Assembly: GCA_014925825.1 (NCBI GenBank) | Contig: JACGCK010000026.1 | Location: 1 to 64,000 of the forward strand | DNA: 64,000 nt | Source of the DNA: Pholiota molesta | Lineage: Eukaryota > Basidiomycota > Agaricomycetes > Agaricales > Strophariaceae | Direction of reading: 5' to 3' | Shown: positions 5,826 to 40,721 of the stretch, in pieces | How the letters are laid out: the number at the start of each line of letters is the position of its first letter | Numbering within the stretch: position 1 is the stretch's first letter | Program-made: the position numbers and the translations under genes | The notes under the pieces: model-generated | The model's input: the letters and a program-made list of their open reading frames with translations, nothing else | The model's database searches: none | Told to the model about the DNA's origin: nothing

Positions 5826-8157
5826 TCATGAGTAATCAAGAAATAGCTGCAACTTGTTGGCTGTCCTAGGAGGAAACTTGAATGCTGACAGCTTGTCTCC
5901 AAACGTGTTCACAATCAGTTGGATGCCTTCCTTCAATCCTGAAATACGCACACGTGGTCAGAATGACACATGAAGCGGAGATGAGAGGTACGTACCATCG
6001 CCAACATGGATGAGAATTTCCTTTGCCTTCTGCGTCTCAATAACATCGATCTCTCTTTCCTCCTTTTCTTTGGGAGAAGCAGTGGGAGCCAATGGCTCGT
6101 TATGAGCAGCTAATTCAATCTGGTACTGCTCAACCGATGAGAGGAAAGAAATCATGGCTTCTAAAATTTTAGGGATGTCCCGCTGGACGACCCCAAATCG
6201 ATCTTCCGTCAGTGAAGCGCTAGTCAATCGGGATAACGCTTTGAAGACCATCAGAGAAGCATTGCAAAAGACGAACAGCGGTACTCACCATCAATAACAA
6301 TGATATCCATCTCCCAAAACGGCAACGAGGCTTCGACAACTCTGCTCTTGCGACTTTCGTTCAACCACGCCGAGAAGCCACCAACGACTTCCCTCAACAT
6401 GACCGGAGAATAGTTAGTCCCAAATTTGGCAGCGAAGGCCAAAGCATCATGTCTCCATCGACTGCCGAGTCCGGTCACGCTCTTGACATTCTTCTTCGTC
6501 TCCTCCGTGATGGGCGACACCACCCTATGTTCAACGCTCCTAAATAGTTCTGGTACATGTGTGGCATTGGCGCTGATATCTATGGCTTTAGCAATAGGGC
6601 CGTCGGATGCCAGCGCATCTAAAGCCGCCTGGCCCGGCGATTCCGGAGTGGTTTTGAATACTCTATTCCTTAGAAGAGGCGTGGGGGTAGCAATCGATGG
6701 AGTATCGACAATTTTGGGTTGGGGTGGTGCAGGGGAGGGAACCACGGGCTCGGGTTGACCTCGGCGGAGAAACGTCTGATAATCGCGACCGAGGACGAGG
6801 AGGGTCTGGCGTGAGAGAGAAGCCCACAAATTGAGCGAGCTTTTTTGGTCACCAAAGAGTTCTGTTCGTCTTGCGCTGGCACTTGCCGAAGTATCGATAG
6901 CTAATTCTCGAAGCTCTGAGAATGCGAAGAAAGCGAAGACCCTATCTTCTGAGGAAAGTCCAGAAACTAATGTTGTGTTGGGATCTGCTGATAGTGTGGC
7001 AATCGGTGCTGTTTCGACGATAGCTTCATCGAAAAGACGGTCAACAAATTCCCAGACAAAAAATGTACTGAAGGCCAAAAACCACGCCCTGAAAAACAAT
7101 TGGTAGTGTCGTAGTGGGAGGGATATCGTCCAGGGGCCCTTAAGGAAATGGGCAGTGAATGGGCGAAGGATGAATGAGAGGATGGGAATTTTGTATAGGA
7201 CTGGTAGCCAGAATCGCAGAACTGCGAAAATCAAAGCTGCTAAGGCTATTGCGAAAGTAGTGAAAATGGCAGAGATAAACCAGTTCAAGAGGATTGCGAC
7301 GTATATCGGGGTTTTCTTTTGAACCCGCTTTAGTATTGTTAGCACAGGTCATGTCAAACACCAAATCTGATTGTATAACTCACTGTAAGCGACCATTTAT
7401 ACACAAAACGATCAATTGTAGCACCCCGTAAAGCAAAAGCTAGCGCAATAGAAAGTTGTGTAATGACCAAGAATAATAGGCGTCCGTTCAAATAGTGAGG
7501 GTGTTTCCTGTAGCGGTAAATGTCAGCAGATAATATGACTGTAGCGACTGCCACTTACTTTGATTTCACGAATAAAGTTAGTTTTGGATCACCATACGTG
7601 TCGATTTCATAAGCATACACCATAATAAGATGTATTACCAGAGCAGATATTGCGGAAATCAGATATACGATCGTAGCAACTTTTGTGCTTGGTTGAGAGA
7701 GTGCGTGTTTCACAATGGCAAGAGGGGAGGTTGCACCGGATCGATGTGCTGGAACGCGAAAAAGTTAGTTCAAGTATTATTCAATTGATTTGTGATGCTT
7801 ACTGGACAAGTATATCTTTCGTAGAACTGAGATGGGCAGAGCCACTGAAAACCAGGCCAGAATGGTGGAAAACAGTACCCATGGACTCATCGGCAGCGTC
7901 AAAGCCCCAAGGAAACCGAGTTTCTCCAAGCATCCATTCTGCCAGTACGCCCATGTAGTGAAAGTGATCCAGGTAGCCGCTCCAGATGCCAACAAGACGA
8001 ACCTCAGACGATGTCGAAACAGCGCTTTTACAAGAGGTTCATATGCTTCACTTGCTGGTGGGATAGAGGGAACAGCCCTGTTGGATATTGTAGACGTTAT
8101 TGCTCGCACAGGCGTTCCCGTTCGTGAAGTTGATGCATTGAGCGCTGGTATCGACAT
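5826..8157 (-). CDS. NDC1: Transmembrane nucleoporin NDC1
   Basis: Six exons join in frame (8157-7803, 7748-7559, 7507-7384, 7327-6289, 6238-5996, 5938-5826) and give 687 residues. Ndc1 anchors nuclear pore complexes and, in yeasts, spindle pole bodies in the nuclear envelope. The N-terminal part is a set of hydrophobic helices (LRFVLLASGAATWITFTTWA, later YVAILLNWFISAIFTTFAIA). It is followed by the family block SDPNTTLVSGLSS plus FFAFSELRELA, a Pro-rich variable region and a C-terminal soluble domain (SRLTSASLTEDRFGVVQ, then GLKEGIQLIVNTFGDKLSAF). The start at MSIPALN was chosen because the upstream in-frame extension is Cys/Arg-rich and unlike the family. All introns are short with GT..AG borders. 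Length and order match fungal NDC1 proteins, and nothing appears broken. Confidence 0.9.
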
Positions 8158-30605: not shown

Positions 30606-30710
30606 AAGCCCCTACTTGCGAAGTTCGAACTACGCGAGCCCTGTGAAGTGAATGTCACGCGCATAACCCGTGATCGCGCGTTTACTAAAATTTTATTTTG
30701 GTCCGTCACT
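30606..30710. promoter_or_regulatory. 5' part of the F-box copy 1 promoter, separated from its gene
   Basis: About 30629-30684 is nearly identical to 35591-35642 upstream of F-box copy 2 (shared ACTACGCGAGCCCTGTGAAG and ATAACCCGTGATCGCGCGTT, with 4 extra bases in this copy). In copy 2 this block lies about 100 bp before the ATG. Here the RecQ/DUF6589 element has pushed it 3.2 kb away. Confidence 0.65.
30701..30710. repeat. Left flanking direct repeat of the RecQ/DUF6589 element
   Basis: GTCCGTCACT, identical to 33811-33820. Because the next base and the right terminal base are ambiguous, the duplication could be 9 or 10 bp. Confidence 0.7.
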
Positions 30711-30747
30711 AGTCTGCTTCCAAACGCGCATAGTTTACCGGCGTAAC
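30711..30747 (+). repeat. Left terminal inverted repeat of the RecQ/DUF6589 element
   Basis: Starts AGTCTGCTTCCAAACGCGC. It matches the reverse complement of 33688-33724 at 31 of 37 positions and ends with the conserved GGCGTAAC. Confidence 0.7.
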
Positions 30748-30861
30748 AAAAAACGTCACGTGCATATCACGTTTCGCTCTCACGGCCCCCGACGCGTCGT
30801 TAATTAGATACCCCCTCGACTGTATTATTTACGCGTTCTCACTGAAATAAATCGCTTCACA

Positions 30862-31816
30862 ATGCCCAATTCAACTCTTGAAGCTCGATACAAATTCGCC
30901 TCACCGGAAGGCCTCCATTTTTGTCGCCAAACTCTCCTCTCCGTGCTACCATTCTGCCCACACGACTATCAATTGACAGGTGTCGCATCTATTTTGGATG
31001 GCCATGATCTTCTCGCGGTCTCTGCCACTGGATCCGGCAAAACAGCGTATACGTATATGACCTTGCTTGTCATTAAAGCCCTTCAAAAAGATCCCGGCCG
31101 AAGTCCTTCAGTGATTTTTCCAAACAATGCAGCTATACTTGTTGTTTCCCCTACGACTGCACTTGAAGAAGACCAGGTAAGTCAATAATAATTCATGGTA
31201 GATTACTTGTCATTGATAGTGTTTACAGGAATTAAAACTGCGAAAATTCGGCCTGACTGCCCAAGCTATCAACAGTGTCACAAAGGAAGAGGCCGCAAAG
31301 AAGGAAATCAATATTTGGAAACAAGTGGAAGCTGAAACCGACGTAATCTTAGTATCTCCGGAGATGATAAAGAGTCCAGGCTTTCAATACTTGGTCGACA
31401 GCCAGGCTTTTTCTGCCCGATTATTTGCGATCTGCTTCGATGAAGTCCATTTGCTAAATAGTTGGGGCCTGGCATTCCGGACGGAATTCCAACAAGTTGC
31501 ATTCTTGCGCAAAAGATTTATACGTCCAGTGGTGCTATTTGGAACAACAGCAACCCTTCGACTTGGCCTTCCAATGACGACAATACTCAACTTTCTTGGG
31601 TTCAAAGAAGATAATTTTATTCTTCATCGTCGATCAAATGCACGTCCGGATGTCAAGCTTATTGTTCGAACTCTTGATGCCACACAAAATAGCGAAAGCT
31701 TTCCGCAGTTGGACTGGGTTCTCAAAGAAACAAGGAAAACATTAATCTTCTGCCCAACAATTCGCTATGGGTTCAAACTTGCAGTCTATTTCTGGTATCA
31801 TTCGAGTAGGGGATGA
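30862..31816 (+). pseudogene. RecQ-type DEAD/H-box helicase, N-terminal part only
   Basis: Two exons (30862-31176 and from 31229) give the first helicase domain: PHDYQLTGVASILDGHDLLA, Walker A AVSATGSGKTA, AAILVVSPTTALEEDQ (motif Ia region), the DEVH box ICFDEVHLLNSWG and the motif III-like LFGTTATLRLG. The protein breaks just after TLIFCPTIRYGFKLAVYFWY and ends within five codons at a TGA. The second RecA-like domain, zinc-binding region and any C-terminal domains are absent. RecQ helicases unwind DNA 3' to 5' in repair and recombination, and multicopy RecQ genes are known in fungal subtelomeres and repeats. This copy should be inactive as a helicase. Confidence 0.8.
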
Positions 31817-33566
31817 ACGATGCGCATAGACTGAACGCCGTTCTCGTGAAATTGGAGGTATTCCTTGAGTTGAACCATTTTCTCATAAGTAAGCCCGTCT
31901 CCTCCAATGGGAAAGAGGCGTTCCTTGAATGATTCCTTCGTTTGACCAGTTTGCTCAAGAAAATCGAGCAGCGCGGCGTTGAGATCGGTAGTGATTGTTT
32001 CGTTACGGCTACTGGATGCCAACGGATGCACCTTTGACGGCTTTGCTTTGAGCGGCTGCTTTGCAACCTTGGTTCGATACCGCAGGGTGATTTCGGGCTG
32101 GAGAGACGAGAGAAGAGGAACATAATGGACCAAGGTGCTGACCCACTGAAGGACACAAATCGCCTCAATATGGGCGTCATCTACAAGTCCGTGTAGTTGG
32201 TGGAGTGTGAGTGACCTTCGAGATTGTTCAAATTGAGTGCGTCGAACATTTCCGAGCTCAAAGGCGGAAATATCGACGCCGTCTAGCTCGATCTCGTAAT
32301 AGGTGGCGGCAAGACCAATGTTGAGTCGATTTTGGCGGCCCATTGACGTGTCGCGTTGAAACAAATAGTTCTGGACGTTATCGAGGCGGATTATGCCGAT
32401 CGTTGCTGGGTTGAGTCCATGAGAAAGGGTAAGCGCAGCTTCACATTCGGAAAGCGCATCCATTGAGCGAACGACGGTGTTGTATGAGGGCATGTCGCCT
32501 ATCCGGCTACGATAGCGAAAGAGGTCGAAGGGAGCCTTTGATCCAAAATATACAAGGGCTGTGGCAAGTGGAAGGAGTTTGGCATGCGAGGAACGGGAAT
32601 AGTCGATGGAGCTGATAACATTAACAGCAACCTTGAAAAATGTTTGTTAGGCGGCTTTCATAAATTAAGAATGTAAAGCCAACCTACCAGATGAGGAGGA
32701 CGCTTTGTCCGTATTGCATTGCTACTATCGCGAGGGCGCCGACTTGCCAATGTGTTGACCAGATTCCACAAGAGAGGTTGGTGTGTGGTAATGATTTCCT
32801 TAGCGCTTTCGAATGTCAGAGCTCCAACATCGCGCCATTCAATCTTCTTTTCGTTGTGGCGCTTGTCGGATAACGAGAGCTGTAGTCCGCTAGACGTGGA
32901 GACCGCAGACTCGGCTTCTGCTACGAGCTTCTTGAGGACGATCTGCACGGCGAATGAGGTGAGCGCGGGACGAATGGGCTTGAGCTCGGTGTAAGGCGTA
33001 TTCGTCGTGTACATGTAAGGGGAGTCTCGCTCCAAACGACCGTATGGGTGTCTGTACCAGCAGTCGAGAATTTTAGAAGGCGGGTATTTAACGTTGCCGT
33101 TGAAGAAATGTTGGAGGGTAGCTGTGATAGATTCGCGCGAAATGTTCCAGTGGTTGAAACGAGAGTCATGGGCGTCGAGCGTCGTCTGAGAGAAATCGAG
33201 ATCCGTGGTTGGCTGGGAAGCGTAGAAGAGCGCCTCGCTGAGTGTCCAATCGAGTTCATGCTTGATAAAGCCGTAAAAAAGCTTAACCTTGTCAGAAATA
33301 GTAAGCGGTGACATTTTTCCGCGTTTGCGGCGCTCTGCCGTTGCTGGAGTATTCTCTTTACCCCATGCCTTTCGTTTAGACCTTAAGGTGTTTTGTGGTG
33401 TTGCCTGAGAATTGTGATTGGAAGGTATGGGGGAGAAAGGAGCAGAATAGTAGCCGGAGACACCAGTACCAGGAGTATTCCAAGATGTAGAGTAATTAGC
33501 CAAGGGAGTGTGTGTAGTAACTTTATAAGGAGTGTGTAGAGCATTATTTTGTTGAGATTCCGACAT
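31798..33566 (-). pseudogene. DUF6589-family protein, C-terminally truncated
   Basis: Two exons (33566-32688 and 32631-31798) join in frame. The N-terminal half is Ser/Pro-rich with basic stretches (RSKRKAWGKE, ERRKRGK), then a helical region (FYGFIKHELDWTLSEALFYA). The second exon holds the domain seen in multicopy basidiomycete DUF6589 proteins: DMPSYNTVVRSMDALSECEA, RLDNVQNYLFQRDTSMGRQN, DDAHIEAICVLQWVSTLVHY and LFPIGGDGLTYEKMVQLKEY. It stops after RIVHPLLE exactly where the opposite-strand helicase also ends, so the C-terminal third is missing. Function of the domain is unknown to me. Its repeat-element setting makes a transposase or recombination role thinkable, but no catalytic motif can be claimed. 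Confidence 0.7.
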
Positions 33567-33687
33567 GAGAAGCCTTAGTTTACACGTAGATTAAGCAGGG
33601 AATTCTGTTTACAGCAAGCAGACGCGCAGACGCGTTGTGTATATTGGTCACATGGTACATCGTGGGAGTAAATAGCGTGGAAAAGTG

Positions 33688-33724
33688 GTTACGCCAGTAT
33701 ACACGGCGCGTTTGCAAGCAGACT
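33688..33724 (-). repeat. Right inverted repeat of the RecQ/DUF6589 element
   Basis: Its reverse complement begins AGTCTGCTTGCAAACGCGC and matches 30711-30747. The 86 bp beyond it hold a 22-bp near-duplicate (TGATCGA-TATCATCAA, twice) and end in GGGAGACTA before the direct repeat. Confidence 0.6.
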
Positions 33725-33810
33725 CCGGATGGAAAGTTGATCGACTATCATCAACTGATTGATCGAATATCATCAATCGCTTTCCACTAGAGTCTGCCTA
33801 CGGGAGACTA

Positions 33811-33820
33811 GTCCGTCACT
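33811..33820. repeat. Right flanking direct repeat of the RecQ/DUF6589 element
   Basis: GTCCGTCACT, identical to 30701-30710. It is followed by GGCGAG, as in the unoccupied site of F-box copy 2. Confidence 0.7.
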
Positions 33821-33867
33821 GGCGAGTTCTTCAAACCCTCATCTCATCTCCCCGCTTCAATATATCG

Positions 33868-35225
33868 ATGTCTGCCAAAGAATTCTATTCCAAGAACGAC
33901 CCTCCTCATCTCCCTTACCTCCCACCAGAACTATGGACCCATATAATCCGACATGCGACATGGGTACCTGGAGGCTACGACCCGGAATTGACGGAATTAG
34001 CGCTCAGTGTGAACGCAAACACGATGAACAAGGAACGATTGGAAGCTTGGAAGAAAGCTTTGGTCGGTCAGAGTTCCAGTTTTATGCTGAGGATCGCTTG
34101 AATGATAAAATCGTTTAGGTAACAAGACGAGCTCTGGTGCGGGTAAGCAAGGCGTGGTACACATTGGCGTCGCCTTTCCTCTACGAGTATATTCTCCTCG
34201 GAAAAGGAAAGGCTGTTTCGTCTTTGCTATGCGGAATGCATAGAACGCAGCAAGGTGTCGAATCCGAAGATAGCACACGGCCGATAGGGTGGTGGACCAA
34301 GCGCCTTGACGTGAACTTCCGGAACAGCACTAGTGATCCAAGAGCTGACATGGACGCATTGGCAGATTTAATGACACATCTGCCCAACCTTCGCGTCCTG
34401 ACGTTCTCGATTACTGGCAACCTATACAAGAAGAGAATACCTCCGAACGTGTTAGGGTCTGTTTCTTGTCGCGAAACCCTGAAATTCGTCCATTTCTACA
34501 CCTACTGCCTTCCGTCGGCGGAGAATTGGACCGTCTTTCTGGAACAGCATCCCTATCTCGAATCGGCGAACTTGAACAATCACGTATTTTCCGCCAGATC
34601 TCACGGACGACTCGGTTGCCTACGGACTATCCACATCAATCACGATAGTACATATCTTCATCGTATTCCAGCTGGAGATTTTTCGTGGCATACCAGCTTC
34701 CCCGCCGTTCGGGCTGCAACATATGACTTGGAATTCAGCATGGATGACGAACGAGCCGAACAATTTTTTACTGCGTTTGGCCCGAAGTTGACAACCATCC
34801 AACTTAGCCAACTGCGCTTGGACCCGGAAGACCCGTGGAATGACACGGAGATCGAGGCTAATCTGGAAGAAACCTTGCACTGGATGCGGTCGGAATGCCA
34901 CGCCTTGGAGCATATCAATCTCTTGTTTCGCTCCTGGCACATTTTTACCCTCTTCAAGGACGCCGACATTTTTCCATCCAAAGTCTCCACGCTCACCATT
35001 CGTATCCTTCAAGGCCAAGTTTCCAAGGAAATGACCGCCCAGCTATTTCAAAGGATATTTTCGTCGATGAAAAATCGTAATCCGAACCTCAAAACGATCC
35101 AGTTTTCTAATAGGATGAATGTTCGCGGATTACGCGCCCATCCGAGGGCCTTGACGGAGGGATTACGGCGCATGAGCGACATTGGCCTCGTTATCAAGGA
35201 CAACGAAGGATGTATCATGGAGTAG
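33868..35225 (+). CDS. F-box-like protein, copy 1 (intact)
   Basis: Exon 1 (33868-34062) and exon 2 (34119-35225) give 433 residues. The N terminus PHLPYLPPELWTHIIRHATW is an F-box-like motif that would bind Skp1 in an SCF ubiquitin ligase. The rest (RVSKAWYTLASPFLYEYILL, NLRVLTFSITG, then leucine-rich blocks to DNEGCIME) resembles the variable substrate-binding part of the large basidiomycete F-box families. The donor is weak (GTCGGT here, GTCAGT in the other copies). It is the only undamaged member of four copies in the window, but its upstream promoter was split by the RecQ/DUF6589 element. Upstream leader and downstream 3' sequence are duplicated at copy 2. Confidence 0.75.
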
Positions 35226-35741
35226 GTCCTTGCTGCTGTACCAGGATAATCGTAGCGAGCCCGCTATAGCTTATTTTGTAAATACTTACAATTTCTAGAG
35301 AATTTTGCCAAGGAGTCTGCGTCAGCTTCGAATTCGGTAGGTGCAATTCATGCCTTGCACTTTGATGCAGTGCTTCCATCTGTGGAGTAACGTTCAGACC
35401 GTTCTCCTTTGAGGAGCAAACATTATTTCAACGATTGTGATAAACAGCAAACACGCTCGACTCTGGGGGGTCCAAGCATCGTCGACGGCGATTGACAAGA
35501 ACGCTGTGTCCCGGTCTCAAATCACAGGGGATTGTAGATTCCTCTCCATAGACAGGCCAGCTTCTGGTCTAAGCCCCTACTACTACTAGTACTACGCGAG
35601 CCCTGTGAAGTGTCACGCGCATAACCCGTGATCGCGCGTTTATTCAACGCCGTCGCTGGCGGTTTCCTCGAGGCCCATCTGGTCCGCTGGGCACTCAAAG
35701 CTCAAAGGCTCAAACCCTCATCTCCCCGCTTCAATATATCG
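35226..35741. other. 3' region of F-box copy 1 and promoter of copy 2
   Basis: About 35226-35545 is near-identical to 42462-42785 behind copy 2. From 35570 to the ATG of copy 2 the sequence repeats the copy 1 promoter and leader (CCCCGCTTCAATATATCGAT before both ATGs). It marks a tandem duplication of the whole gene unit. Confidence 0.65.
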
Positions 35742-35783
35742 ATGTCTGCCAAAGAATTCTATCACAAGAACGATCCTCATATC

Positions 35784-36186
35784 TGTTGAGTATTGACTCC
35801 TATGGACTCTCTTTCGCTTATTTCCCCCTATACTTATCTTTGCTTGCCGCTTTTATCAAATCACTTTCCTATTCCAATAACGCACGTTCACGCGTGCTCA
35901 TTCTACATTTCAACTATTTCATATCTTACTCCCCAAGACGAGCACATGTCGTGCTCGTCCGGATACCTTTCCGTTGTACTTAAACTACAAACATCCGTAT
36001 CGCACACCTCATCTGTCACCACATACCGTGTCTGACTCTGAGGTGTGCATACTTCTATACCTTATTTTTCCCTCGTATATTGACTACCTTATTACCAGAT
36101 CTTTACTTCGTATTTCAGGTAGTCACTACAATATTATCTGTCACCACATACCGTGTCTGACTCTGAGATCTTTACTTCGTATTTCA
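35784..36186 (+). repeat. 5' LTR of the Copia element (403 bp)
   Basis: Starts TGTTGAGTATTGACTCC, ends CTTCGTATTTCA. It contains an internal duplication: ACCACATACCGTGTCTGACT and GATCTTTACTTCGTATTTCA each occur twice. Confidence 0.95.
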
Positions 36187-36279: not shown

Positions 36280-38628
36280 ATGACCTCGCAGACACACACA
36301 CCCCCTATCCTACCAGATGGCCAGAAGTTCGATGGCACGAACTGGGCATCCTGGAACCGATGGGTTGTAACGACAGCTAGGATACGCAGCGCCGAGAAGT
36401 ACCTCAACGGCCTCGTTCCCAGCCCTACATCTCCAACCATCACTGTACCAGCAGCGACTACAGCAGATACAACTGCACCTGCCTCCACAACCCCTGAATC
36501 CACCCCATGGCACTCTATGACTCCGTCGTTGGATGAATGGACCATTCGCGATGCTTGGGCGATGGGATTGCTTCTGTACAATTGTACAAACCCAATCGGT
36601 TTGGGGATGAAGTCAGACGGGACCGCTGCCGAGGCCTGGAAATCGTTGAAGGACTTATATGGCGTGCAATCTACCCTGTTCGCCGTCAACGCGCAGCGTG
36701 AGCTCCGAAACACAATGCTCCGAGATGGGGAAGACCTTACCGCTCACATCACCAATCTACGCCTCAAATGGTCGGCTGCGAACGATGTTGGAGCGAATAT
36801 TTCGGACAAGGACTTCATTATCATCCTTCTCGCCTCACTTCCTCCCTCCTGGGATACCATCGTCGCCACACTCTACGAAACGCAGACATCTGTCGATCTG
36901 ATCTCAAAGCTGAATTTTCACTGGGCTAGAATTGGCAGAAACTTACCTGCAATCAAAGGAGCAATTACCGCGCTTGCAGCAAATGCGAAATCATCGAAGT
37001 CTGTTCTCCTATGCACCAATCCCAAGTGTGGTCGTCGTGGACACCTCATTGAGGACTGCTATTGGGAAGGAGGAGGGAAGGAGGGTCAGTTCCCGCCCCA
37101 CTTCCGCAAAAAGGTCATCGTCAACGCACCTCAGACAGCCAAAACTGCGCAGGCGAACGTCGCTACAGCCCCTACAGTCACAGCCGCCATCGCCGATACC
37201 AGCCAGAGCCCGGTCATCGAGAGAACCTATACAGTTCTCATGGCTGACTCTACACAAGAGCAGGTTGTGATCTCCGATGCTGGTGCTCTCCTCACCACCT
37301 CGAGCCCAAACGTAAATGCCGACCTCACGTTCGTTGACTCTGGTGCCAGCGACCATTGCTTCGTGAATCGCAGAGACTTCGGCGATGATTACATAGCTTT
37401 CAGCACACCGCGAGAGGGCCAATCTGCGAGTAAAGGCGCGAAATTTCGCATCCTTGGTCAAGGATCTGTTACGAAGGTCATCGACTCACCTGGACTCAAC
37501 TCGCGTACCACGCTGGAGTTCCAGACTGTACTTCACACTCCCGATCTCACCGCCAACCTCATATCCGTGGGTCGTTTTGATCTCGCTGGCTTCAACGTGA
37601 ACTTTGGCAACAATCGCGCTACTTTCGTTGACCCATCCGGAACTGCCTTCATGGCAGGAGAACGCTCGGGCTCAATGTATCGCCTCCTGCTATCCAACCC
37701 TGTCAACGCCATGTCAGCGAGGTCCCACGAGAAACCGGCAGACCTTGATTTGTGGCATCGCCGATTCGGACATGTCAGTGTGTCGTCCGTCCGTGCGCTC
37801 GCTAAGCAAGACCTACTAGACGGGCTCCAGGTCACTGGTGATGTCGATTTGAAGGGAAAATGTGAGGATTGCATATATGGGAAGCACACGGCACGCCCAT
37901 ATGACGAGAAGTTCGGGAAGGAGACTGAGCTCCTTGAGCGTGTTCATGCCGATATCTTTGTGATGTTGAACACGCCCTCGCTCGGTGGTGCCGTATACAT
38001 GATGCTCATGACGGATGGGAAGTCTTCTGTCAAGCATGGGTATTTCCTCACCCACAAATCCGCAGATGACACGCTACACGCACTGAAGGATTACATCGCA
38101 GAGGCTGAAACCCAAACTGGGAAGAAGCTCAAACGTCTTCGCGTCGACATGGGCAGGGAGTGGCGTAACGAGAAGTGGGATGAGTACCTGCGAGAGAAGG
38201 GGATCATTATGGAATCTGGCGCACCTTATGCCCACGCGCAGAACGGTGTTGCCGAGCGAGGCATCCGCACCATTGTCGAGCGTACCCGCTGCATGCTTGC
38301 TGACTCGGGACTGCCACACGGCTTGTGGGCTGAGACTGCGAGGACCGCCATCTACCTCGATAATTTCATTCCCTCTGCACGTCACCCAGGCGTCATCCCG
38401 TGGGAGGTGTGGACAGGAAAACGACAAGACGTCTCCCATCTACGCCCCTTCGGATGTACAGCCTATGCCAAGGTCGCGCCAGAAATAGACCAGTCGAAAC
38501 TTCTCCCTCGGTCAATCAAATATGTCATGATAGGCTATTTTGGTCGCAGCGCCTATAAGCTCTATGACCCTGCGACCCGACTTATAATTAAATGTCGCGA
38601 TGTCATTTTCGAGAAGGAGAAGCCATAG
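36280..38628 (+). CDS. Copia gag-protease-integrase polyprotein (upstream part)
   Basis: The 782-residue frame begins MTSQTHTPPILPDGQKFDGT. It contains a gag core (WKSLKDLYGVQS, LASLPPSWDTIV), a CCHC zinc knuckle with the spacing CX4CX4HX4C (CTNPKCGRRGHLIEDC), an aspartic protease active site (FVDSGASDHCF), a GAG_pre-integrase block (LWHRRFGHVSVSS, CEDCIYGKH) and an integrase core (HADIF, MTDGKSS, RVDMGREW, NGVAERG). It ends EKEKP at a TAG where relatives would continue into the pol linker. Acts within virus-like particles in the cytoplasm and nucleus. Frame loss at the end separates it from reverse transcriptase. Confidence 0.9.
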   Translation: MTSQTHTPPILPDGQKFDGTNWASWNRWVVTTARIRSAEKYLNGLVPSPTSPTITVPAATTADTTAPASTTPESTPWHSMTPSLDEWTIRDAWAMGLLLYNCTNPIGLGMKSDGTAAEAWKSLKDLYGVQSTLFAVNAQRELRNTMLRDGEDLTAHITNLRLKWSAANDVGANISDKDFIIILLASLPPSWDTIVATLYETQTSVDLISKLNFHWARIGRNLPAIKGAITALAANAKSSKSVLLCTNPKCGRRGHLIEDCYWEGGGKEGQFPPHFRKKVIVNAPQTAKTAQANVATAPTVTAAIADTSQSPVIERTYTVLMADSTQEQVVISDAGALLTTSSPNVNADLTFVDSGASDHCFVNRRDFGDDYIAFSTPREGQSASKGAKFRILGQGSVTKVIDSPGLNSRTTLEFQTVLHTPDLTANLISVGRFDLAGFNVNFGNNRATFVDPSGTAFMAGERSGSMYRLLLSNPVNAMSARSHEKPADLDLWHRRFGHVSVSSVRALAKQDLLDGLQVTGDVDLKGKCEDCIYGKHTARPYDEKFGKETELLERVHADIFVMLNTPSLGGAVYMMLMTDGKSSVKHGYFLTHKSADDTLHALKDYIAEAETQTGKKLKRLRVDMGREWRNEKWDEYLREKGIIMESGAPYAHAQNGVAERGIRTIVERTRCMLADSGLPHGLWAETARTAIYLDNFIPSARHPGVIPWEVWTGKRQDVSHLRPFGCTAYAKVAPEIDQSKLLPRSIKYVMIGYFGRSAYKLYDPATRLIIKCRDVIFEKEKP

Positions 38629-39089
38629 GACACTCACCAAGACCTTGGACGATGTACTCGTCGAGGATGGACCAGATGTCCAAGCCGCGGCTCCTGTATC
38701 GAACGCTGGGGTGCTTAGATCCAGCATGCAGAACGTGTGGCGCCGCGCCCGCGCATAACGGATCCGCCCTTACACGAACATCCCGCGCTGTCAGATTCTG
38801 CGCGTCCTACGGCCGCACCTCCCACGCCCAATACCATTCCTGTGGTTCCAGTTGTCCCACCTGCCCCACTTCGTCGCTCTACGCGCCATGCCAAACCATC
38901 CTCCGCCCTTGAAGCATCGCGCGGGTACGTCGAGCGTGAAGTTGCCGCAGAAAGTGGGGGAGAACCGTGGGCACAGACAGTACGCGCGCTTTCTGCGACC
39001 ATCGACGACGTCGATGATACACTCTTCAGACTCGACGGCCTTAATTTCGACGAACCCGAACCTGTCGACACTGTGCCGAGCGGGAGTAT
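38629..39089 (+). pseudogene. Copia pol linker with frame breaks
   Basis: The linker peptide can be followed as three pieces: TLDDVLVEDGPDVQAAAP in one frame, RITDPPLHEHPALSDSARPT to PEPVDTVPSG in the frame of the upstream polyprotein, and then the reverse-transcriptase frame. Breaks lie near 38618-38630, 38755 and 39080. These probably inactivate the element, unless some are base-calling errors. Confidence 0.7.
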
Positions 39090-40721
39090 TTGGACCTCAA
39101 CAATGATCTCGACGCGTACCTTGCACTTATGTCGACACAGCGCGACTCCTACATACCCAGAAACTACAAGGAGGCGATGGAGCGCCCAGACCTCTGGCAG
39201 CCAGCGATGGAAACGGAGATGGATACCCTTCTTGAACGCCAGGTGTTCAAGTGGGTGGAGGCGCCGCCCGGCGCACACATCATCGATTGCAAATGGGTCT
39301 TCGCGAACAAGTACAACGCCTTGGGCGACATCACCAAGCGCAAGGCTCGTCTCGTTGCACGAGGTTTCAACCAAATCCCCGACCTCGAATTCGACGAAAC
39401 ATATGCCTCTGTGGTACGCATGGAATCTTTTCGGATCGCTGTTGCCATTGCTGCCTCCTGCGACTACTCGATCTGGGGAAAGGACATCGTCGCCGCCTAC
39501 CTATACGCGCTCACACGCTTCACCACCTACGTGAGACCACCCCCGGGCGCCATCAGACCAGCAGGATTAGACCCAACGAAGACATGGGTCTGGGTCCTCG
39601 ACAAGTCGCTCTATGGTACCATGGACGCAGGCCACAATTTCCAGCATGAGGTTGTCGGCTCTTTCGAGAGCCTTGGATACTATCGCTCACTTGCCGACCC
39701 TTGCATTCACTCTCGAGTCTCCGAGGACGGTGTCCATACCATCACCAGCACCTACACGGACGATATTTTTGGCATCTCGTCCACACCTGCCGGCGGTCAC
39801 ATCGCCTCCGAGGAGCTCGATTCTTGCTTCGAGACGAAGGATCTGGGGGAGCCTACATACATCCTCGGGATCGAGATTACGCGCGACAAGGAAGCCGGCA
39901 CCATTTCCCTTTCCCAGCGTACATTCCTTGAGCGTATGCTTGAGGAATTCGGTATGATGGACTGTAATTCGAAGCCGACTCCACTGCCTGTCGGTATCTC
40001 GCTCAGCACCGAAGACTGCCCAACTTCTGATGAGGATCGCCGATACATGGTCGACAAACCCTATCGTGAAGTCTTAGGGAAAATGAACTGGGCTGCAGGC
40101 GGCACTCGATCTGACATCGCCTATGCCACGGGCGTACTGTCGCGCTACCAATCGAACCCCGGTCCAGCACACTGGCGTGCGATGCTCCATTTAATGGCAT
40201 ACGTGAAAGGGACGCTCGACTATTCCATCACATACCACCGCGGCATCCCCATCACCCCCGTCACGTACGCCGATGCGAGCTTCGCTGACGACTTCGACAC
40301 CCGGCGCTCAACTGCTGGATACGGGGTTTGGATGGCTGGCGGTCTCGTCTCATGGAGCTCGAAGAGGCAACCAACGGTCGCGCTGTCCACCACGGAAGCT
40401 GAATACATGTCGATGACACGCGCTGCCCAACAACTCACTTGGATGTACGCTTACCTCGACGAAGTCGGCCTACCTCAAGAATATCCCTATACCATCTTCG
40501 GAGACAACGCTCCCGCGATCGCCCTCACCAAGAATACAAAAGGCCACGCTCGCGCTAAACATATTGACGTCCGCTATCACTACATCCGCGAACGCGTCAA
40601 GGAGGGCATAGCTGCCATAGAACACATCCCGTCCGACAAGAACCTCGCCGATATCTTCACTAAGCAACTTCCCCGCCACACGCATCAACACCTCTCTCGC
40701 CAAATAGGCCTCACAGCGTAA
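39090..40721 (+). CDS. Copia reverse transcriptase-RNase H (downstream part)
   Basis: A 543-residue open frame. The RVT_2 domain begins YKEAMERPDLWQPAMETEMD and CKWVFANKYN, with KARLVARGFNQ and the catalytic STYTDDIFG (YxDD box). KPYREVLGKMNWAA and RPDIA-like GTRSDIAYATGVLS follow. The RNase H-like end has YADASFADD, STTEAEYMSM, GDNAPAIALTKN and HIDVRYHYIRE, finishing ADIFTKQLPR. The domain itself is intact. Confidence 0.9.
   Translation: MDLNNDLDAYLALMSTQRDSYIPRNYKEAMERPDLWQPAMETEMDTLLERQVFKWVEAPPGAHIIDCKWVFANKYNALGDITKRKARLVARGFNQIPDLEFDETYASVVRMESFRIAVAIAASCDYSIWGKDIVAAYLYALTRFTTYVRPPPGAIRPAGLDPTKTWVWVLDKSLYGTMDAGHNFQHEVVGSFESLGYYRSLADPCIHSRVSEDGVHTITSTYTDDIFGISSTPAGGHIASEELDSCFETKDLGEPTYILGIEITRDKEAGTISLSQRTFLERMLEEFGMMDCNSKPTPLPVGISLSTEDCPTSDEDRRYMVDKPYREVLGKMNWAAGGTRSDIAYATGVLSRYQSNPGPAHWRAMLHLMAYVKGTLDYSITYHRGIPITPVTYADASFADDFDTRRSTAGYGVWMAGGLVSWSSKRQPTVALSTTEAEYMSMTRAAQQLTWMYAYLDEVGLPQEYPYTIFGDNAPAIALTKNTKGHARAKHIDVRYHYIRERVKEGIAAIEHIPSDKNLADIFTKQLPRHTHQHLSRQIGLTA

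Follow-up and report, generated by a model that had tools for sequence, protein, structure and literature searches.

A helicase-bearing DNA transposon of Pholiota molesta with DUF6589 as its likely transposase

In the Pholiota molesta genome (GenBank assembly GCA_014925825.1), the first 64,000 nucleotides of contig JACGCK010000026.1, hereafter the window, contain a RecQ-type helicase gene and a DUF6589 gene enclosed by short repeats. Do these repeats delimit a mobile element, and if so, to which class does it belong and which protein moves it? We confirmed the feature to be a genuine mobile-element insertion. It is very probably an AcademH-type cut-and-paste DNA transposon, AcademH having been compared by published description only, in which the DUF6589 protein would be the DDE transposase and a RecQ-like superfamily 2 (SF2) helicase would assist it.

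Ends, target duplications and empty sites

The insertion has the following parts in the window.

30701..30709, no strand: left target-site duplication GTCCGTCAC, identical to 33811-33819; boundary from alignment with other copies
30710..33810, plus strand: whole element, 3,101 bp, TAGTCTG...GGGAGACTA; internal-deletion derivative of the 5,728-bp element at C244
30710..30747, plus strand: left end including the left inverted-repeat arm; the matches of six other copies begin here
33688..33724, minus strand: subterminal repeat of the left end, inverted; its outer part is one arm of the predicted right-end hairpin
33718..33810, plus strand: right terminus, hairpin-forming 93 bp ending in CTACGGGAGACTA, from the single-strand DNA fold
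33811..33819, no strand: right target-site duplication GTCCGTCAC, from alignment with other copies and a duplication scan

The first-pass annotation, made from the letters of the window alone, had described a 37-bp imperfect inverted repeat (30711-30747 and 33688-33724) and taken its right arm as the end of the element. Our recount gave the same 31 matches in 37 positions, and an independent repeat search of the window recovered this repeat as 46-nt arms (78%). However, each of the six further close-family copies runs on to the position of 33810, so 33688-33724 is subterminal and was ruled out as the right terminus; alignment with these copies places the right end 86 bp beyond the arm. The 10-bp direct repeat GTCCGTCACT reported for the outer edges is indeed present at 30701-30710 and 33811-33820, but the other copies indicate a true duplication of 9 bp (GTCCGTCAC). 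On the left, the tenth base (T) already belongs to the element as its first base; on the right, it matches by chance.

All seven copies of the close family (the window copy, C244, C113 twice, C119, C152 and C615) start with TAGTCTG, end with AGACTA and are flanked by 9-bp direct repeats, each different. Among 30 pairs of DUF6589 and helicase genes found in the genome, 19 were fetched for end analysis, and matching short ends with target duplications were detected in 15, the duplication being exactly 9 bp in 14, as the 9-10 bp anticipated by the first-pass annotation would have it. The pairs at C11, C334, C147, C46 and C603 share the six terminal bases of the close family and have 9-bp duplications. 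A lineage with divergent genes (C25 near 24 kb, C257 and C180) has TAGRCTCG ends and a 9-bp duplication, C108 has the ends CAGGCTCC and a 9-bp duplication, and C456 has the ends (C)AGGCTCC and a duplication that reads 8 to 10 bp. Both of the two short derivatives also carry target-site duplications of 9 or 10 bp. No matching ends with duplications were found in the remaining four fetched pairs (C40, C25 at 111-118 kb and C400 twice), the C400 stretch possibly stopping short. The 9-bp duplications have no common sequence.

As a control, we collected the 387 pairs of TAGNCT and AGNCTA lying 0.5-9.5 kb apart in 31 loci. Identical outer 9-mers were found in 15 of them and in none of the other 372, and these 15 correspond one for one to the 15 elements that have this terminus; the coincidence of ends and duplications is more than chance.

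The joined flanks of six copies were then used as queries for element-free paralogues in the genome. Contiguous ones were obtained for five copies, those of C152 (180 bases, 99%), C119 (97%), C113 (91%), C615 (90%) and C244 (85%), and the element-free matches of the second C113 copy (92%) extend only ∼30 bases across the junction. For the window copy, an empty site had been proposed at about 35650; a paralogue at 35575-35790 does match both flanks with the element absent, but its alignment is ambiguous close to the insertion point. These observations bear on the explanation that both genes are host genes and that the repeats arose by chance or by segmental duplication, in keeping with which the flank of the neighboring gene is duplicated nearby. 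It was refuted by the empty sites and by the copies that sit in unrelated surroundings and have a duplication of their own in each case, and its probability is close to nil.

Two fragments of the surroundings recur in the window. The start region of the neighboring gene (33843-33904) is repeated ∼1.9 kb downstream at 35717-35778, and a part left of the element (30629-30689) is repeated ∼5 kb downstream at 35591-35647. The neighboring open frame itself (34137-35222), previously called F-box, had no Pfam match. Beside the duplicated gene-flank fragment lies the coding region of a Copia-type long terminal repeat retrotransposon (36280-40721; Retrotran_gag_2, gag_pre-integrs and RVT_2).

A deletion derivative and its paired genes

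In a genome search, the C244 copy matched the first 1,089 bp and the last 2,012 bp of the window element, with identities of 98.99% and 99.3% on the two sides. Since it holds both pieces with 2.6 kb more between them, the window copy has undergone an internal deletion. The C244 copy is 5,728 bp long and retains both genes in convergent orientation. It provides what the first-pass annotation had suggested looking for, a longer copy that shares the ends and contains the two genes. Its helicase gene has two exons and encodes 671 aa, and its DUF6589 gene has three and encodes 1,040 aa; splice sites were picked by eye and reading frame, not from transcripts, and the exon limits in the window were transferred from this copy.

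30862..31176, plus strand: helicase exon 1, with a Walker A-like stretch ATGSGKT; 97% protein identity to residues 1-106 of the C244 helicase
31229..31816, plus strand: helicase exon 2, interrupted at ∼31799 by the deletion, with a stop 17 bases on; 94% identity to C244 residues 105-310
31799..31800 (approximate), no strand: deletion junction; loss of ∼2,627 bp compared with C244 (5,728 - 3,101), with ∼1 bp of microhomology
31800..32631, minus strand: exon 2 of the DUF6589 protein, cut short by the deletion; PF20231 match at 31801-32223
32688..33566, minus strand: DUF6589 protein exon 1, N-terminal part; open frame 32658-33566

What was read in the window at first pass as two convergent genes is the N-terminal portion of a RecQ-like helicase (plus strand) and that of a DUF6589 protein (minus strand), facing each other across the deletion junction. 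Judged from its sequence, the window copy is a non-autonomous deletion derivative and an incomplete element; because the C-terminal parts of both proteins are lost, it would be mobile only if another copy supplied the proteins.

The helicase contains the Pfam domains DEAD and Helicase_C, and its nearest PDB chains are RecQ and RecQ1. DUF6589 (PF20231) is listed in Pfam as a family of unknown function. The C244 counterpart of exon 1 of this protein had no Pfam match, and an alignment profile of the DUF6589 protein had no matches to PDB chains at E ≤ 10. Its predicted structural model was nearest to the Hermes (top match, a hAT transposase), P-element and RAG transposases, with 8-13% identity over aligned residues and with the caution that the tool attaches to helical models. 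This predicted resemblance to DDE/RNase-H transposases agrees with the earlier proposal of DUF6589 as the candidate transposase. A homologue search with the DUF6589 protein yielded 68 relatives, labelled hypothetical, uncharacterised, unnamed or DUF6589-domain proteins; those named by organism belong to the class Agaricomycetes. A further search with a 14-protein alignment, aimed at animal or XPG-bearing relatives, yielded 15 proteins, of which the organism-named ones were fungal. All 15 had PF20231 alone, and with 7,995 candidates scored there may still be animal relatives.

Across the genome, 61 PF20231 matches were resolved into 36 loci, and a helicase relative was found within 6 kb at 30 of them; conversely, 30 of 32 helicase loci were paired with DUF6589. 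As the genome searches scored the best candidates only, these locus numbers are minimum values, and a helicase only remotely related to the query would have escaped them. The absence of a second copy, or genes lying unpaired, had been named in advance as evidence against an element; instead, further copies share the ends and most of the detected DUF6589 loci have a helicase partner. The pairs are convergent in 22 cases and divergent in eight (C180, C19, C25 at 24 kb, two at C257, C36, C40 and C613), and none has both genes on the same strand. Among the four divergent pairs fetched, those at C25, C257 and C180 have the TAGRCTCG ends and 9-bp duplications described above, and the one at C40 lacks them. 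Taken together, the pairing of the genes in the genome, the ends they have in common and the fold of the model make DUF6589 the likely transposase of helicase-bearing, AcademH-type elements in mushrooms.

At C400:131837-139809, two pairs of DUF6589 and helicase genes are inverted, helicase beside helicase, with an equal score for one DUF6589 half. Elsewhere in the window, a nucleoporin Ndc1-type gene lies at 6251-7342 on the minus strand.

Placement among known transposons

AcademH reportedly goes back to Kojima in 2020, as Academ DNA transposons encoding a helicase. We filed the Pholiota element as AcademH-type because a helicase, a DDE transposase and 9-10-bp duplications together make up the published AcademH description. 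In the accounts given by citing papers, AcademH has a helicase and duplications of 9 or 10 bp and AcademX a nuclease and duplications of 3 or 4 bp (PMC10045372), and AcademH occurs at low copy number in Basidiomycota, Ascomycota and Mucoromycota (PMC10799480). The Pholiota elements agree with these accounts in their 9- or 10-bp duplications, in the helicase gene beside the putative transposase gene and in their basidiomycete host. They differ in that the right-end hairpin, DUF6589 as the candidate transposase and the two gene orders do not appear in the passages describing AcademH, and the likeness is one of description, not of sequence. AcademX was rejected, the duplications being 9 bp rather than 3-4 bp and no XPG match being found in the proteins scanned with Pfam.

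Fungal Academ copies were reported with recognisable domains in 1,568 of 1,938 cases, the DEAD helicase domain PF00270 and recQ_fam being among the examples given (PMC6416283). The Pholiota element likewise has such a helicase inside its copies, although the relevant part of that paper names no DUF6589 gene and gives no ends. In bivalves, Academ elements have a mean length of 5,565 bp (PMC10294476), which the Pholiota element fits. The view at first pass that no established class unites these two genes is thus superseded, as far as these published descriptions go, by AcademH and fungal Academ.

The same features bear on other helicase-bearing or similarly duplicating elements. Kolobok transposons insert at TTAA with a 4-bp duplication, whereas the Pholiota elements have 9-bp duplications without common sequence and their helicase is encoded by a gene of its own on the other strand; assignment to KolobokH, the fungal Kolobok lineage encoding a RecQ helicase, is therefore very unlikely. 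KolobokH does resemble them in being fungal and in carrying a RecQ helicase beside a DDE transposase (PMC9587614), a part for which DUF6589 is the candidate in Pholiota. A Mutator-like element (MULE), the reading favored at first pass, would account for the duplication length, since MULEs make duplications of ∼9 bp. We consider it extremely unlikely, given that no MULE domain was found in the proteins scanned with Pfam, that the partner gene is RecQ-like and that Hermes is the best fold match. Hermes, the P element and RAG are the best structural matches of the predicted model at the low identities given above, but hAT and P elements have 8-bp duplications, and none of the three is known to carry a helicase gene. 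A Starship-like element, which would carry a DUF3435 recombinase, is not supported either, with no DUF3435 match in the proteins scanned with Pfam.

The Pholiota elements might instead form a helicase-bearing DDE superfamily of their own outside Academ, again with DUF6589 as the transposase. Three points weigh toward this: the comparison with AcademH is one of description; the nearest folds are those of Hermes, P and RAG; and the term DUF6589 was not found in the 5.39 million CC0, CC BY or CC BY-SA papers of PubMed Central that were searched, a result that says nothing of other papers or of Repbase. On the other side, the descriptions of AcademH and fungal Academ agree with the Pholiota elements in the type of helicase, the size of the duplications and the range of hosts, and bivalve Academ agrees with them in length, so that we regard a separate superfamily as improbable. 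The passages of the open-licence literature concerning Academ with XPG or DDE, PMC12730594 included, add no description of the transposase. As DUF6589 is named in no open-licence PubMed Central paper, its assignment as a transposase family may be new. The kind of element, Academ or AcademH, is already known, and the link to DUF6589 is the useful part.

Right-end hairpin, proposed mechanism and significance

The 93 terminal bases of the right end are predicted to fold as a branched hairpin, with GAGTCTGC near the terminus pairing with the inverted left-end repeat that lies further in. The z-score of the single-strand DNA fold was -6.45 for the right end of the C244 copy and -4.45 for that of the window copy, compared with +0.47 for the left end and -0.12 for the C11 relative, the last of which speaks against a hairpin right end as a general rule. 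That a helicase-bearing element should end in a predicted hairpin is suggestive.

The hairpin-forming right end was also found alone, without the rest of the element, at 18 genome sites beyond the full copies. Two of these have the same flank on either side, over 9 bp at C1 and 10 bp at C345, a 10-bp shared stretch at C170 overlaps the element end, and the other 15 have no shared flank of 9 bp or more. An elaborated form of the separate superfamily, with at least two gene orders and one family whose hairpin right end is resolved by the helicase, would explain right-end fragments of 57-94 bp with their own 9-10-bp duplications as products of one-sided processing. We hold this to be quite improbable, and the solo right ends are not enough for a claim.

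For an AcademH-type element, we propose that the DUF6589 transposase would bind the TAGTCT-type ends and cut the element out, and that the excised element would be joined to a target whose strands are cut 9 bp apart, repair of the gaps then leaving the 9-bp duplication. The RecQ-like helicase may open or process DNA, either at the ends, perhaps at the right-end hairpin, or in the course of repair.

If DUF6589 is indeed the transposase, annotators could remove transposon genes from host gene sets. Since the two genes, the ends and short derivatives are all available, the Pholiota elements also offer a defined system for asking what role a RecQ-like helicase plays in cut-and-paste transposition.
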